A DNA stretch of 39,290 bases, taken from Sandarakinorhabdus oryzae (lineage in GTDB: Bacteria > Pseudomonadota > Alphaproteobacteria > Sphingomonadales > Sphingomonadaceae). Made by a program: the position numbers and the translations under genes. The stretch lies in the NCBI RefSeq assembly GCF_009733735.1, contig NZ_WNJP01000007.1, positions 1 to 39,290 on the forward strand, read 5' to 3'. This document shows, piece after piece, positions 17,498 to 37,447 of this stretch. The first letter of the stretch is position 1. Each line of letters opens with the position of its first letter. The notes beneath the pieces were generated by a model that was not told where the DNA came from, made no database searches, and was given only the letters and a program-made list of their open reading frames with translations.

Positions 17498-17512
17498 GTT
17501 CCCCCCTTGTTC
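17498..17512 (+). promoter_or_regulatory. LexA (SOS) box upstream of recA
   Basis: The sequence is an exact GTTC-N7-GTTC direct repeat (17498-17501 and 17509-17512), the LexA operator known for alphaproteobacteria. It ends 74 bases before the recA ATG. The second half also forms a palindrome with GAAC at 17518-17521. Confidence 0.85.
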
Positions 17513-17586: not shown

Positions 17587-18660
17587 ATGGCAACAGCACT
17601 CAAGGTGGTGGAATCGGGAATGGATCGGCAAAAAGCGCTGGAAGCGGCACTGGCCCAGATTGATCGTGCGTTCGGCAAGGGCTCGGTGATGAAACTGGGC
17701 CAGCGCGACGCGATGGAGGTGGAGGCGATCTCCACCGGCTCGCTCGGTCTTGATATCGCGCTCGGCATCGGTGGTCTGCCGCGTGGCCGTGTCGTGGAAA
17801 TCTATGGCCCGGAAAGCTCCGGCAAGACGACGTTGGCGCTGCATGCCATCGCCGAGGCGCAGAAGAACGGCGGCACCGCGGCCTTCGTCGATGCCGAACA
17901 TGCGCTGGACCCTGTCTATGCCAAGAAACTGGGCGTCAATATCGACGAACTGATCGTCTCGCAGCCCGATACGGGTGAGCAGGCGCTGGAGATTGTCGAC
18001 ACGCTGGTGCGCTCCAACGCCATCGACGTGCTGGTGGTCGATTCGGTCGCCGCACTGGTGCCGCGCGCGGAAATCGAAGGCGAGATGGGCGACAGCCACG
18101 TCGGCCTGCAGGCCCGCCTGATGAGCCAGTCGCTGCGCAAGCTCACCGGCTCGATCAGCCGTTCGCGCTGCCTGGTCATCTTCATCAACCAGCTGCGCAT
18201 GAAGATCGGTGTGATGTACGGCAACCCGGAAACCACGACCGGCGGCAACGCGCTAAAATTCTATGCCTCGGTCCGTCTCGACATCCGCCGCACCGGCCAG
18301 ATCAAGGATCGCGACGATATCGTGGGCAACACCACCCGCGTGAAGGTGGTGAAGAACAAGGTGGCGCCGCCGTTCAAGCAGGTCGAGTTCGACATCATGT
18401 ATGGCGAGGGTGTCTCCAAGATCGGCGAAATCCTCGATCTCGGCGTCAAGGCCGGGGTGGTGGAAAAGTCGGGCGCCTGGTTCAGCCACGACAGCGTGCG
18501 CATTGGCCAGGGCCGCGAGAACGCCAAGAAATATCTGAAGGAAAATCCGGACGTCGCCGCCAAGATCGAACGGGTGATCCGCGACAATGCCGCCGGTATA
18601 TCCGATGCACTGATGGTCGGCCCGTCTGCAGACGACGATGCCGGCGATGACGAGATGTAA
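17587..18660 (+). CDS. recA: Recombinase RecA
   Basis: RecA forms ATP-dependent filaments on single-stranded DNA, promotes homologous recombination and triggers LexA self-cleavage in the SOS response. The 357-residue product has the Walker A loop GPESSGKT at 74-81, the [17 protein letters not shown] segment of the core, and a C-terminus ending in an acidic cluster (DDDAGDDEM). Length and sequence are standard. A purine-rich stretch (GGGAAGGGAACC) lies close upstream of the ATG. Expression is probably SOS-controlled through the box at 17498-17512, and transcription ends at a strong terminator directly after the gene. Confidence 0.99.
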
Positions 18661-29609: not shown

Positions 29610-30431
29610 ATGAGCGAGACGGACCCGCCCCGCCGCCGCGGCATCCCGCTGCGTGCCTTGATCCCCAACGCGGTGACGGTGCTGGCGCTGTGCTTCGGCC
29701 TGACCGGCGTCCGCTTTGCCATTGGCGGCGAGTGGGAAAAGGCGGTGGGCGCGATCCTGCTGGCCGGGGTGCTGGATGGCATTGATGGCCGCATTGCCCG
29801 CCTGCTGAAGGGCACCAGCCGTTTTGGCGCCGAACTGGATTCGCTGTCAGACGTGACCGCCTTTGGCGTGGCGCCAACGCTGGTGCTTTATCTGTGGGCG
29901 CTTCAGCATCTGCCGGGCCGATTTGGCTGGGTGATTGCGCTGGCCCACGCCATTGCCTGCGCGCTGCGGCTGGCACGGTTCAACGCCCAGATCGATGCAG
30001 AGGACCAGCCGCATAAGCGCCTGGGCTATCTGACGGGCATTCCGGCACCGGTGGGAGCAGGGCTGGCGCTCAGCCCGCTCTATCTGCAATTCTGGCTTGC
30101 CCCGGCGTTTCTGGATGATCTGGCGATCCGGGCCAGCGTGGTCGCTGCCATCTCGCTGTGCGTGGCCTTCCTGATGGTGTCCAGCCTGCCCAGCTACAGC
30201 TGGGGCTCGTTGCGGTTGCGCTCGACGTGGCGGCTGCCCGCATTGGGCGCGGTCGGCCTGTTTGCCGGGGCGCTGTTCACCAATCCCTGGCCAACGCTCA
30301 CGCTGGTTGTGGTGGCCTATGCTGCCACCCTGCCGTTTGCGGTGAGCAGTTATGCCCGGCTGAAGGCCCGCGAAGGCAGCGGCCGCGCCGTCGAGACGCG
30401 CGCCGCCGACGGCATCCAGCCACCGCCCTGA
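29610..30431 (+). CDS. pssA: CDP-diacylglycerol-serine O-phosphatidyltransferase
   Basis: PssA makes phosphatidylserine from CDP-diacylglycerol and serine, feeding Psd encoded just upstream. The 273-residue membrane protein carries the full CDP-alcohol phosphotransferase signature DGx2ARx8Gx3Dx3D at Asp59, Gly60, Ala63, Arg64, Gly73, Asp77 and Asp81. Several hydrophobic segments follow, including YLTGIPAPVGAGLALSPLY. The N-terminus is basic (PPRRRGIPLRALIPN), typical of the subfamily. No clear ribosome site precedes the ATG. Its last 82 bases overlap a small ORF on the opposite strand (30350-30544). Confidence 0.95.
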   Translation: MSETDPPRRRGIPLRALIPNAVTVLALCFGLTGVRFAIGGEWEKAVGAILLAGVLDGIDGRIARLLKGTSRFGAELDSLSDVTAFGVAPTLVLYLWALQHLPGRFGWVIALAHAIACALRLARFNAQIDAEDQPHKRLGYLTGIPAPVGAGLALSPLYLQFWLAPAFLDDLAIRASVVAAISLCVAFLMVSSLPSYSWGSLRLRSTWRLPALGAVGLFAGALFTNPWPTLTLVVVAYAATLPFAVSSYARLKAREGSGRAVETRAADGIQPPP

Positions 30432-30544
30432 ACCGGTTGCCCACGCAGGGCATCGATCAGCAGCAGGCGGGCATCGCCCAGCATCAGGCCCACCAGAGCC
30501 CAGGCGGCCACACAGGCCAGCAGCATCAGCAGCATCGTCATCAT
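30350..30544 (-). CDS. Candidate SOS-regulated small membrane protein
   Basis: This 64-codon frame begins MMTMLLMLLACVAAWALVGL, one strongly hydrophobic segment (about residues 3-22), followed by LGDARLLLIDALRGQP and a basic, proline-containing tail with several arginines. The start has an AAAGGA ribosome site 4 bases upstream. The promoter region on this strand (TTGACG at 30623-30628, CATAAA at 30599-30604, 18 bases apart) contains one LexA box in the spacer and one just past the -10. I do not recognise the protein. Small SOS-induced inner-membrane proteins such as Caulobacter SidA block division, so a similar role is conceivable but unproven. Its 3' half is antisense to the end of pssA, which lowers confidence that the full frame is translated. 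Confidence 0.58.
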   Translation of the reverse strand: MMTMLLMLLACVAAWALVGLMLGDARLLLIDALRGQPVQGGGWMPSAARVSTARPLPSRAFSRA

Positions 30545-30578
30545 CCGGTCCTTTCGATCGGCGTCGAATCGCCGTCGT

Positions 30579-30593
30579 GTTCCGTTTCTGTTC
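30579..30593 (-). promoter_or_regulatory. LexA (SOS) box, promoter-proximal copy
   Basis: An exact GTTC-N7-GTTC on the forward strand (30579-30582 and 30590-30593). It begins 35 bases upstream of the small ORF's ATG at 30544 and lies just downstream of that ORF's predicted -10. The acyl-CoA ligase start at 30723 is 129 bases away on the other side. Confidence 0.75.
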
Positions 30594-30598
30594 TACCG

Positions 30599-30628
30599 TT
30601 TATGTTCCGCAAATGTTCCCCGCGTCAA
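30599..30628 (-). promoter_or_regulatory. Predicted promoter of the small membrane ORF
   Basis: On the reverse strand TTGACG (30628 to 30623) and CATAAA (30604 to 30599) are 18 bases apart. The interval between them is almost filled by the second LexA box, a layout expected for a LexA-repressed promoter. Confidence 0.5.
30604..30618 (-). promoter_or_regulatory. LexA (SOS) box, promoter-spacer copy
   Basis: A second exact GTTC-N7-GTTC (30604-30607 and 30615-30618), its start 25 bases from the start of the first. The four GTTC units start at 30579, 30590, 30604 and 30615, giving spacings of 11, 14 and 11. Confidence 0.75.
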
Positions 30629-34415: not shown

Positions 34416-35489
34416 TCAGAACAGGCTGAATTGATCGTTGGGCGGACGGAACTGGCTGCAATCGAGCGTGAAGCTGTCGCGGCTGAGGCCGTGCGCGGCG
34501 CAGGCCTTGTGGAATCGCTGGCGCATCAGCGTGGCATAGGCGCCTTGGGGCTGGAAGCGCGCGAAGAAGCGCGGGTCATTGTCCTTGCCGCCGCGCATGT
34601 CGGCAATGTGGTGCATCACCCGGGCAGCGCGATCAGGGAAGTGGGTGGCCAGCCAGTCGCGAAACAACGGCGCCACCTCGTGCGGCAGGCGCACCGGGAT
34701 GGAATAGGCGCCCACGGCACCGGCGTTTGCGGCGGCTTCGACAATCGCTTCGATCTCGTGATCATTGATGGCCGGGATCATTGGCGACAGCGAGACATAG
34801 ACCGGCAGGCCAGCGGCGCTGAGGGCGCGGATGGCGGCAATCCGGCGCGGCGGGGTGGCGGCCCGCGGTTCCATCAGGCGGGCGAGGCGGGGATCGAGCG
34901 TCGTCACGCTGATCATCACGGCAGCGAGATTGCGGGCGGCCATGGCGGCCAGCAGGTCGAGATCGCGGCAGACCCGATCGCTCTTGGTGGTGATGGTGAC
35001 GGGGTGGTGGCAGGCGTTCAGCACATCCAGGATCTGCCTTGTGATCGTCCATTCGCGCTCGATGGGCTGATAGGGATCGGTGTTGGTGCCCAGCGCGATG
35101 GGCTGGCACTGGTAGCCGCGTTTGGCGAGTTCGGCCTTCAGCAGCGCTGGCGCATCCGGCTTGGCAAACAGCCTGCTTTCGAAATCGAGGCCAGGTGACA
35201 GATCGTGAAAGGCGTGGGTGGGACGGGCAAAGCAATAGACGCAGCCATGCTCACAGCCGCGATAGGCATTGATCGAGCGATCGAACGGCACATCAGGCGA
35301 CTGGTTGCGGGTGATGATGGTGCGCGCGCGTTCCACCGTCACCGTGGTGCGCAGCGGTGGCGGCGCGCAGTCAATCGTGGTGGCCGCATCCAGCCAGTCG
35401 CCATCGGCCTCGCGTGCCGCGAGCCCGAACCGGACCGGTGTGGCGTTCAGCGTGGCGCCGCGGCCTTTTGGCGGGGGAGGCGTGGCCAT
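34416..35489 (-). CDS. PA0069-like radical SAM protein
   Basis: The 357-residue protein has the radical SAM cluster motif CEHGCVYC (Cys79, Cys83, Cys86) preceded by the SplB-like NAYRG, then YCFARPTHAFHDLSPGLDFESRL. Later segments (ALGTNTDPYQPIE and TITTKSDRVCRDLDLLA) match the Rv2578c/PA0069 branch related to spore photoproduct lyase. The reaction is unknown; the SplB resemblance suggests DNA or nucleotide damage chemistry, but that is inference. A perfect LexA box begins 25 bases upstream of the start, pointing to SOS control. The upstream same-strand gene encodes a DEDDh exonuclease, 51 bases away. Confidence 0.9.
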   Translation of the reverse strand: MATPPPPKGRGATLNATPVRFGLAAREADGDWLDAATTIDCAPPPLRTTVTVERARTIITRNQSPDVPFDRSINAYRGCEHGCVYCFARPTHAFHDLSPGLDFESRLFAKPDAPALLKAELAKRGYQCQPIALGTNTDPYQPIEREWTITRQILDVLNACHHPVTITTKSDRVCRDLDLLAAMAARNLAAVMISVTTLDPRLARLMEPRAATPPRRIAAIRALSAAGLPVYVSLSPMIPAINDHEIEAIVEAAANAGAVGAYSIPVRLPHEVAPLFRDWLATHFPDRAARVMHHIADMRGGKDNDPRFFARFQPQGAYATLMRQRFHKACAAHGLSRDSFTLDCSQFRPPNDQFSLF

Positions 35490-35513: not shown

Positions 35514-35528
35514 GAACAGAAAAAGAAC
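35514..35528 (-). promoter_or_regulatory. LexA (SOS) box upstream of the radical SAM gene
   Basis: GAAC at 35514-35517 and GAAC at 35525-35528 are separated by 7 bases, which is GTTC-N7-GTTC on the gene's own strand. A further GAAC lies at 35506-35509. The box is 24 bases from the ATG, in the 51-base gap after the exonuclease gene. Confidence 0.75.
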
Positions 35529-36974: not shown

Positions 36975-37007
36975 CGGCGGGTGTGGGCCGGCTTGCGGGC
37001 GGCGCGT

Positions 37008-37022
37008 GTTCCTTTTATGTTC
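37008..37022 (+). promoter_or_regulatory. LexA (SOS) box upstream of the GFA-family gene
   Basis: An exact GTTC-N7-GTTC (37008-37011 and 37019-37022). It overlaps a plausible promoter, TTGCGG at 36993-36998 and TATGTT at 37016-37021 with a 17-base spacer, and ends 26 bases before the ATG. Confidence 0.75.
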
Positions 37023-37048
37023 TGGTCAGATCTGATCGGGAGGGACGA

Positions 37049-37447
37049 ATGATAAACGCCGGTGGGTGCCATTGCGGCGCCGTGCGCTATGAGGTGGAGG
37101 GGCCGCCGCAGCATGTGGCGCTGTGCCATTGCCAGGATTGCCGCAAGAGTGCCGGTGCGCCGCTGGTGGCGTGGGCGGCCTTTGCCGAAGCGAATTTCCG
37201 GCTGACCAGGGGTGAGCCGGTGGCGTTCAACTCGTCGGGCCAGGCCTGGCGGCATTTCTGCCCGCGCTGCGGATCGGGCCTCTATTATCGCAATGCCGAT
37301 TATCTGCCCGGCATCGTTGATGTGCAGGCCGCCACGCTCGACGATCCGGACGCGTTTCCGGCCAGTGGCCATATCCAGGTCGCCGAGCGCATCAGCTGGA
37401 TGGCGACAGCGCACGAATTGCCGACGTTCGATCGCTTCCCCGAATAA
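37049..37447 (+). CDS. GFA family zinc-binding protein
   Basis: The 132-residue protein belongs to the glutathione-dependent formaldehyde-activating (GFA/CENP-V) fold. Zinc ligands are Cys7 and Cys9 (GGCHCGAVRYE), Cys26, Cys28 and Cys31 (LCHCQDCRKSAG), and Cys71 and Cys74 (FCPRCGSGLYY), the full seven-cysteine pattern. The founding member was described as speeding S-hydroxymethylglutathione formation, but most bacterial paralogues have no proven activity. A GGGAGGG ribosome site precedes the ATG. The promoter carries a LexA box, so the gene is probably induced by DNA damage. It converges with the right-end transglycosylase with 5 bases between stops. Confidence 0.87.
   Translation: MINAGGCHCGAVRYEVEGPPQHVALCHCQDCRKSAGAPLVAWAAFAEANFRLTRGEPVAFNSSGQAWRHFCPRCGSGLYYRNADYLPGIVDVQAATLDDPDAFPASGHIQVAERISWMATAHELPTFDRFPE

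Follow-up and report, generated by a model that had tools for sequence, protein, structure and literature searches.

The window analysed here, a 39,290-nt stretch from the alphaproteobacterium Sandarakinorhabdus oryzae (contig NZ_WNJP01000007.1), contains an open reading frame for 64 amino acids on the reverse strand (30350-30544) that converges with a pssA-type phosphatidylserine synthase gene on the forward strand (29610-30431; best NCBIfam match TIGR00473 with 92.2 bits, under the cut-off of 107). The 82 nt at its 3′ end are antisense to the 3′ end of pssA, and roughly the first 37 codons, including those of a hydrophobic helix, fall outside that gene. The start codon ATG (30542-30544), with a second ATG immediately 3′ of it, is preceded by the ribosome binding site AAGGA (30549-30553, read from the sequence), located 4 nt from the first ATG and 7 nt from the second. 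A membrane helix passing into a juxtamembrane helix (residues 2-35, encoded by 30440-30541) forms the conserved core according to AlphaFold2 and the conservation of this part, and the segment antisense to pssA (30350-30431) encodes a C-terminal tail that is variable among relatives and missing from natural short versions. The ribosome site and the antisense 3′ part had been pointed out in a first-pass annotation of this DNA, and both are present as described. With orthologues at the same locus in 24/24 genomes of the genus, 30350-30544 looks like a real gene that lacks annotation and encodes a small membrane protein with one helix.

Upstream of the ORF, also in reverse orientation, we noticed a -35 element TTGACG (30623-30628), for which the sequence reading is joined by the recurrence of TTGAC in relatives, and a -10 element CATAAA (30599-30604, read from the sequence), separated by an 18-nt spacer. 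At a distance of 34-74 nt from the start codon, this upstream region contains two exact GTTC-N7-GTTC sites: GAACATTTGCGGAAC (30604-30618) occupies the spacer and touches the -10 element, and GAACAGAAACGGAAC (30579-30593), the one nearest to the ORF, follows just past the -10. Both boxes and their placement agree with the earlier reading of the sequence, and an operator sitting over the promoter is the arrangement of a LexA regulon member. The window contains 5 such sites against 0.54 expected, a number reached in 0 of 100 shuffles. Genome-wide, the bare pattern was not enriched (27 + 20 sites versus 20 + 22 for the reversed control, i.e. 47 versus 42), so that the pattern alone is weak proof and promoter context and conservation have to carry the case. 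In this genome, lexA (L216) and recA, whose identities come from NCBIfam equivalogs, are preceded by the same box form, which also stands in front of ORFs that we named by eye from their N-termini as uvrA, uvrD, dinB, imuA, rmuC and mmcB. In 13 stretches, which cover 15 of the 42 box sites outside the window and were picked mostly for AT-rich spacers, a recognisable ORF followed the box in eight cases (lexA, a VOC-like ORF and six SOS-type ORFs named by eye), and in the other five no SOS gene was recognised. Given the identical box form in front of lexA, recA and the ORFs named uvrA, uvrD, dinB and imuA, the sites upstream of the small ORF are very probably LexA boxes.

Searching with pssA, we found the locus in all 24 genus genomes, this one counted, and at each of them the stretch between pssA and an acyl-CoA ligase gene contains at least one exact box and, behind it, a short ORF that is convergent with pssA and whose product has a helix at its N-terminus. 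For the core codons outside pssA, dN/dS was 0.11 between the window and locus L010, and the pooled pN/pS over 66 pairs of the two-box clade was 0.59, the lowest value of the six frames (0.76-1.62 for the others). Single-pair values from 13 pairs ranged from 0.00 to 0.96 (core codons), and the other two forward frames contained stops in 12/12 and 8/12 genomes; two reverse frames were likewise stop-free in 12/12 genomes. Taking the pooled ratio together with the wide spread among pairs and the open reverse frames, the coding constraint on the core of the small ORF is real but moderate. The genus proteins share invariant or near-invariant A, M and L residues, and their tails vary, with early ends in L052 and L055. 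The number of boxes varies as well, with two exact boxes in 12/24 genus loci and one in the other 12, and two boxes within 45 nt were detected in 16 of 99 loci from other genera of the family. The proposal that two exact boxes at one promoter imply tight repression therefore reaches only as deep as one clade.

We further explored the locus across the family. The pssA gene was present in 106/109 family genomes drawn, three of them belonging to the genus, and the 3′ flanks of the other 103 plus five further family genomes from the order search gave 108 non-genus flanks. An exact box facing pssA was found in 100/108 of these flanks and a box together with the helix ORF in 99/108. As in the genus, operator and gene are thus conserved together, in line with membership in the LexA regulon and with the expectation that reading frame and boxes would be kept jointly in relatives. 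In the first 60 flanks the true half-site gave a count of 56, whereas permuted versions of it gave 0-8; with the true spacing the count was likewise 56, and other spacings gave 0-11; in all 108 flanks permuted half-sites faced pssA 0-6 times, except for ACAG with 24, perhaps because boxes often begin with GAACA. Under a strict rule, a helix ORF followed the box in 55/56 loci, whereas random positions gave a mean of 0.75 and Markov sequences one of 0.125. Exceptions were G096, G024, G069, G141 and G116, where the helix ORF is in place without an exact box (in G096 the box carries one changed base), G133 and G070, where no convincing ORF was found, and G114, with a box but without a helix ORF; the flank of G086 stops at the contig end and was counted among the misses. 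The promoter layout recurs too. In 46/56 other-genus loci the box is preceded by TTGAC at a distance of 4-7 nt, and in 21/24 genus loci at 4-5 nt; within 30 nt it was found in 23/24 genus loci and within 25 nt in 50/56 other-genus loci, where 2 were expected. In 66 boxes of the family flanks, the box is followed by A and then mostly by T and A.

The protein itself is loosely conserved, with a length of 35 to 117 aa in the family (median 79 aa) and a mean column identity of 17% outside the genus. A profile built from the genus core matched 30/298 family genomes at E ≤ 0.05, seven of them genus members; among the 23 non-genus match loci that were fetched, a box lay nearby in only 4. Since the sequence profile alone misses the other genera, we searched by position instead, and orthology outside the genus is judged by position, box and helix. 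On this comparative basis, in which box, frame and helix are conserved, the gene, its translation frame, the layout of its LexA-box promoter and the single helix are supported, as had been proposed for an SOS-controlled, translated, single-helix protein.

The boxes might instead serve the acyl-CoA ligase gene, with the small ORF as a chance open frame. The ligase does read away from the boxes here, the first ATG in its listed ORF being 41 nt distant from the box, and it is the divergent neighbour in all 24 genus loci. However, the divergent neighbour in the 99 other family loci was rpsB-like in 81 (named by eye and counted by tblastn), the ligase in 12 and another gene in 6, so that the ligase is missing from 87/99 loci at which box and ORF are retained. 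The pssA side of the locus stays constant (99/108) while the opposite side changes. This argues that the boxes serve the small ORF and not the ligase, the -35 element and the order of the boxes also point toward the small ORF, and codon constraint and helix conservation speak against a chance frame. The first-pass annotation had named boxes that track the ligase, with the frame lost in relatives, as the outcome that would tell against the small gene; we observed the opposite, boxes that follow a conserved ORF. We therefore rejected the assignment of the boxes to the ligase, a reading that appears already largely refuted and that we consider highly improbable.

The constant pssA side extends to the overlap between the two genes. 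Among 96 placed loci, 93 show an overlap of the ORF with pssA (median 48.5 nt). The frame of the ORF end relative to pssA is identical in 92/96 although the proteins differ in length between 35 and 117 aa, and this speaks for a tail that is translated. The conserved PssA C-terminal motif YARVRRQR, seen in 29610-30431 and in the homologues L093-L152, corresponds in many genera to an antisense frame that ends in LRAAA-stop, and judged from these sequences this is a clear case of overlapping coding constraint. Of the small proteins, 87/99 end in AA, and the ending is kept in a few loci that lack the YARVRRQR motif (G134, G153, G102, G084). We do not claim the terminal AA as an SsrA-like degron, as this end is the antisense image of the PssA motif in most of the loci compared.

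Outside the family, among 44 pssA-bearing genomes from other families of the order, 29 flanks were fetched, one of which had only 324 nt, leaving 28 usable; no exact box was found within 1 kb of pssA in 27 of these, the sole one being in G059 at 0.88 kb, and G346 has a one-mismatch site near pssA. From the other orders (38 pssA-bearing genomes of the class), none of the 20 flanks fetched had a box at pssA. A box followed by a helix ORF was likewise found at none of 30 Ppx-GppA loci of the class search, two of which represent this genome and its family. In sister families, 30 automatically fetched box loci from 18 genomes (L226-L255) contained a helix ORF at one place only, in G042, which was seen twice. 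We then picked ten regions in ten sister-family genomes, each for boxes in the vicinity of pssA or for two divergent boxes close together, and nine of these showed a helix ORF of 52-77 aa behind the box. Seven of the nine read toward pssA from 0.9-6.4 kb, a proportion biased by the choice of loci with boxes near pssA or in a close divergent pair, and two are unlinked. Compared with the family profile, the ORF at L262 scored 19.0 bits, with 18.1 as the highest score among its 50 shuffles, and the one at L264 3.8 bits, with 2.6 for the best shuffle; for the other seven, between 1 and 27 of 50 shuffles scored equally high, and all except L262 reached 6 bits or less. The AA ending occurs in none of the nine. 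We offer these ORFs as analogues in comparable positions rather than as established orthologues. In at least four of the nine loci, the divergent gene carries a motif that we take to be that of Ppx/GppA. At L256, L257, L260 and L261, loci of one sister family, the helix ORF and this Ppx/GppA-like gene are divergent with one box each, the paired boxes being about 41-42 nt apart, start to start, and the Ppx/GppA-like gene may be SOS-controlled as well.

The bond to pssA suggests another explanation, in which the gene would couple DNA damage to phospholipid synthesis, either by a protein that binds PssA or its product or by antisense transcription into the pssA 3′ end. The constancy of the pssA side next to a changing other side, the frequent overlap with its fixed relative frame, and the sister-family ORFs reading toward pssA, from loci chosen with the bias described above, are all consistent with it. 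The overlap is absent in 3/96 placed loci, however, and in sister families the gene is separate from pssA and in 2/9 loci unlinked to it, indicating that antisense overlap is dispensable. A slow pace of rearrangement could also explain why the two genes stay together, and coding constraint by itself can produce the frame relation. We regard a role in lipid synthesis as unlikely, and it stays a live rival.

For the protein, AlphaFold2 (run on 24 sequences) gave a single helix at residues 2-35, first confident and then fading, followed by a low-confidence tail (mean pLDDT 70.2, pTM 0.36; 94, 93, 84 and 64 for successive ten-residue blocks, then 46-49). Together with the hydrophobicity seen in 99 loci, this describes a very small, predicted single-helix membrane protein, a feature shared with SidA. 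K or R before the helix was found in 0/99 family proteins, which is partly by construction because only starts with the helix within nine residues were accepted, and 97/99 carry a net positive charge on the C side; K and R are likewise absent ahead of the helix in all nine ORFs from sister families, of which two had been trimmed to an inner ATG. By the positive-inside rule, an uncharged N side and a basic C side predict an N-out/C-in orientation with the basic tail in the cytoplasm, in which we have moderate confidence; the tail being antisense to pssA, part of its arginine content may be forced by PssA codons. Near the helix, L is preferred at one position (78/99) and F at another (72/99), and together with the invariant A, M and L these preferences suggest a specific contact. 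Searches of Pfam and NCBIfam with 24 and 58 proteins returned only weak matches of single members (lowest E-values 0.0014 for Pfam and 0.0054 for NCBIfam), none common to two members, and there was no LysM domain of the YneA/ChiZ kind among the Pfam matches. In this genome (G000, a draft estimated to be 99% complete), SulA (PF03846) had 0 matches. Membrane location and damage induction of the small protein are very likely, and LexA control with induction by DNA damage can be predicted with high confidence.

A LexA operator combined with a single hydrophobic helix is also the hallmark of TisB and DinQ of E. coli. TisB has 29 aa, and TisB-type toxins are patchy in distribution. The protein might accordingly be an SOS-induced peptide of this sort, lowering the membrane energy or altering membrane-linked processes such as dormancy or nucleoid compaction, with no target in the divisome. 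DinQ, according to PMC3567139, is a LexA-controlled single-TM peptide of 27 aa whose promoter overlaps two LexA operators, as at our locus. It is under the control of an antisense RNA, and the antisense relation observed at our locus is the one to pssA. The shortest natural versions of our protein, 35-40 aa in L128, L192 and L052, keep only the helix and the juxtamembrane part, and the loose sequence conservation would fit a peptide that needs mainly hydrophobicity. Most versions are tailed, however, with a median length of 79 aa; the preferred L and F and the genus-invariant A, M and L suggest specific contact, and presence in most of the family (99/108) differs from the scattered occurrence of TisB-type toxins. 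We hold a DinQ-like role to be rather unlikely, and it too stays a live rival.

The explanation we prefer is a LexA-repressed SOS gene for a single-pass inner-membrane protein with a late-division checkpoint role, and we give this whole statement a probability of about one half. That the gene encodes an SOS-controlled membrane protein is, on the comparative evidence, highly probable; for a division-inhibitor function like that of Caulobacter SidA we see the chances as evenly balanced. Upon DNA damage, RecA filaments would trigger LexA self-cleavage and derepress the small gene, and the helix would insert in the inner membrane and pack against a late-divisome membrane protein, for which FtsW, FtsI and FtsN are the precedents. 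Septation would then be held until repair is complete and LexA closes the promoter again. We infer the divisome target and the division arrest by analogy alone. The absence of a SulA match and the presence of a well-conserved helix protein behind a LexA box fit the pattern of small SOS division inhibitors.

According to the cited papers, SidA is an inner-membrane protein of 29 aa that is induced in the SOS response and inhibits division through FtsW (PMC4211646), a Caulobacter lexA deletion filaments owing to unregulated SidA expression (PMC12700426), and small membrane inhibitors of late division, YneA, ChiZ and SosA among them, are called widespread (PMC13396833). The protein resembles SidA in kind, as both have an SOS-type promoter, are very small, contain one helix and are alphaproteobacterial; compared by description, it differs from SidA in its length (64 aa here), its basic tail, its predicted N-out/C-in orientation and its position beside pssA. 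DidA of Caulobacter (71 aa, SOS-independent, binding FtsN) has a similar length and one predicted helix, and the Gram-positive YneA, ChiZ and SosA are SOS-induced single-helix membrane proteins, SOS induction being predicted in our case. YneA and ChiZ contain a LysM domain, unlike the protein studied here. In YneA of B. subtilis, the helix is packed on TM7 of FtsW (PMC13396833), and DidA (PMC4211646) and YneA (PMC13396833) act via parts outside the cytoplasm, whereas the basic C-tail is predicted inside here, with no obvious match to their topology. With E. coli SulA the protein would share the proposed role as an SOS checkpoint, but SulA inhibits FtsZ polymerisation (PMC13396833). A pure division-inhibitor role does not predict the linkage to pssA, and this bond and the predicted orientation stand against a simple match to the known inhibitors. 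Joining both sides, a family-wide SOS protein of inverted topology, with its short N-terminus outside and the basic tail inside, could be imagined, encoded at a locus kept next to pssA by overlap and a fixed relative frame, where damage both makes a membrane checkpoint protein and throttles phosphatidylserine and PE synthesis, tying membrane growth to the checkpoint; this combined scenario we consider decidedly unlikely.

In the open-licence papers returned by our searches, we found no description of a protein that stops division during DNA damage in sphingomonads, nor of the small gene itself. In Sphingopyxis granuli TFA, lexA and recA are reported to rise 6-fold during growth without oxygen (PMC6472365). 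The small gene is not in the table of selected SOS genes in this Sphingopyxis paper (in the part available), and the accessible part of PMC5343134 does not mention LexA. We file the protein as a new family of a known kind, set apart by predicted topology and gene neighbourhood. The comparison points to one small gene that occurs in almost all family genomes analysed and whose control can be predicted from its promoter. Should the protein inhibit division, it would represent another alphaproteobacterial solution beside SidA; an action on lipid synthesis would add a new arm to the SOS response.

Further exact LexA boxes were observed in the window and elsewhere in this genome. The box at 17498-17512 (forward strand) lies 74 nt upstream of recA (17587-18660, forward strand) and is a positive control built into the window. 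Another box (35514-35528, reverse strand) is located 24 nt before a radical SAM gene of the PA0069 family (34416-35489, reverse strand), which suggests that the gene of this uncharacterised enzyme belongs to the SOS response in this genome. The box at 37008-37022 (forward strand) lies at the start of an ORF (36983-37447, forward strand) with a weak match, below the cut-off, to S-(hydroxymethyl)glutathione synthase. Outside the window, the VOC-family-like ORF recognised by eye stands behind an exact box in L215, near 1276-1310, and similar-looking VOC-like ORFs follow boxes in the sister-family loci L247, L253 and L254.
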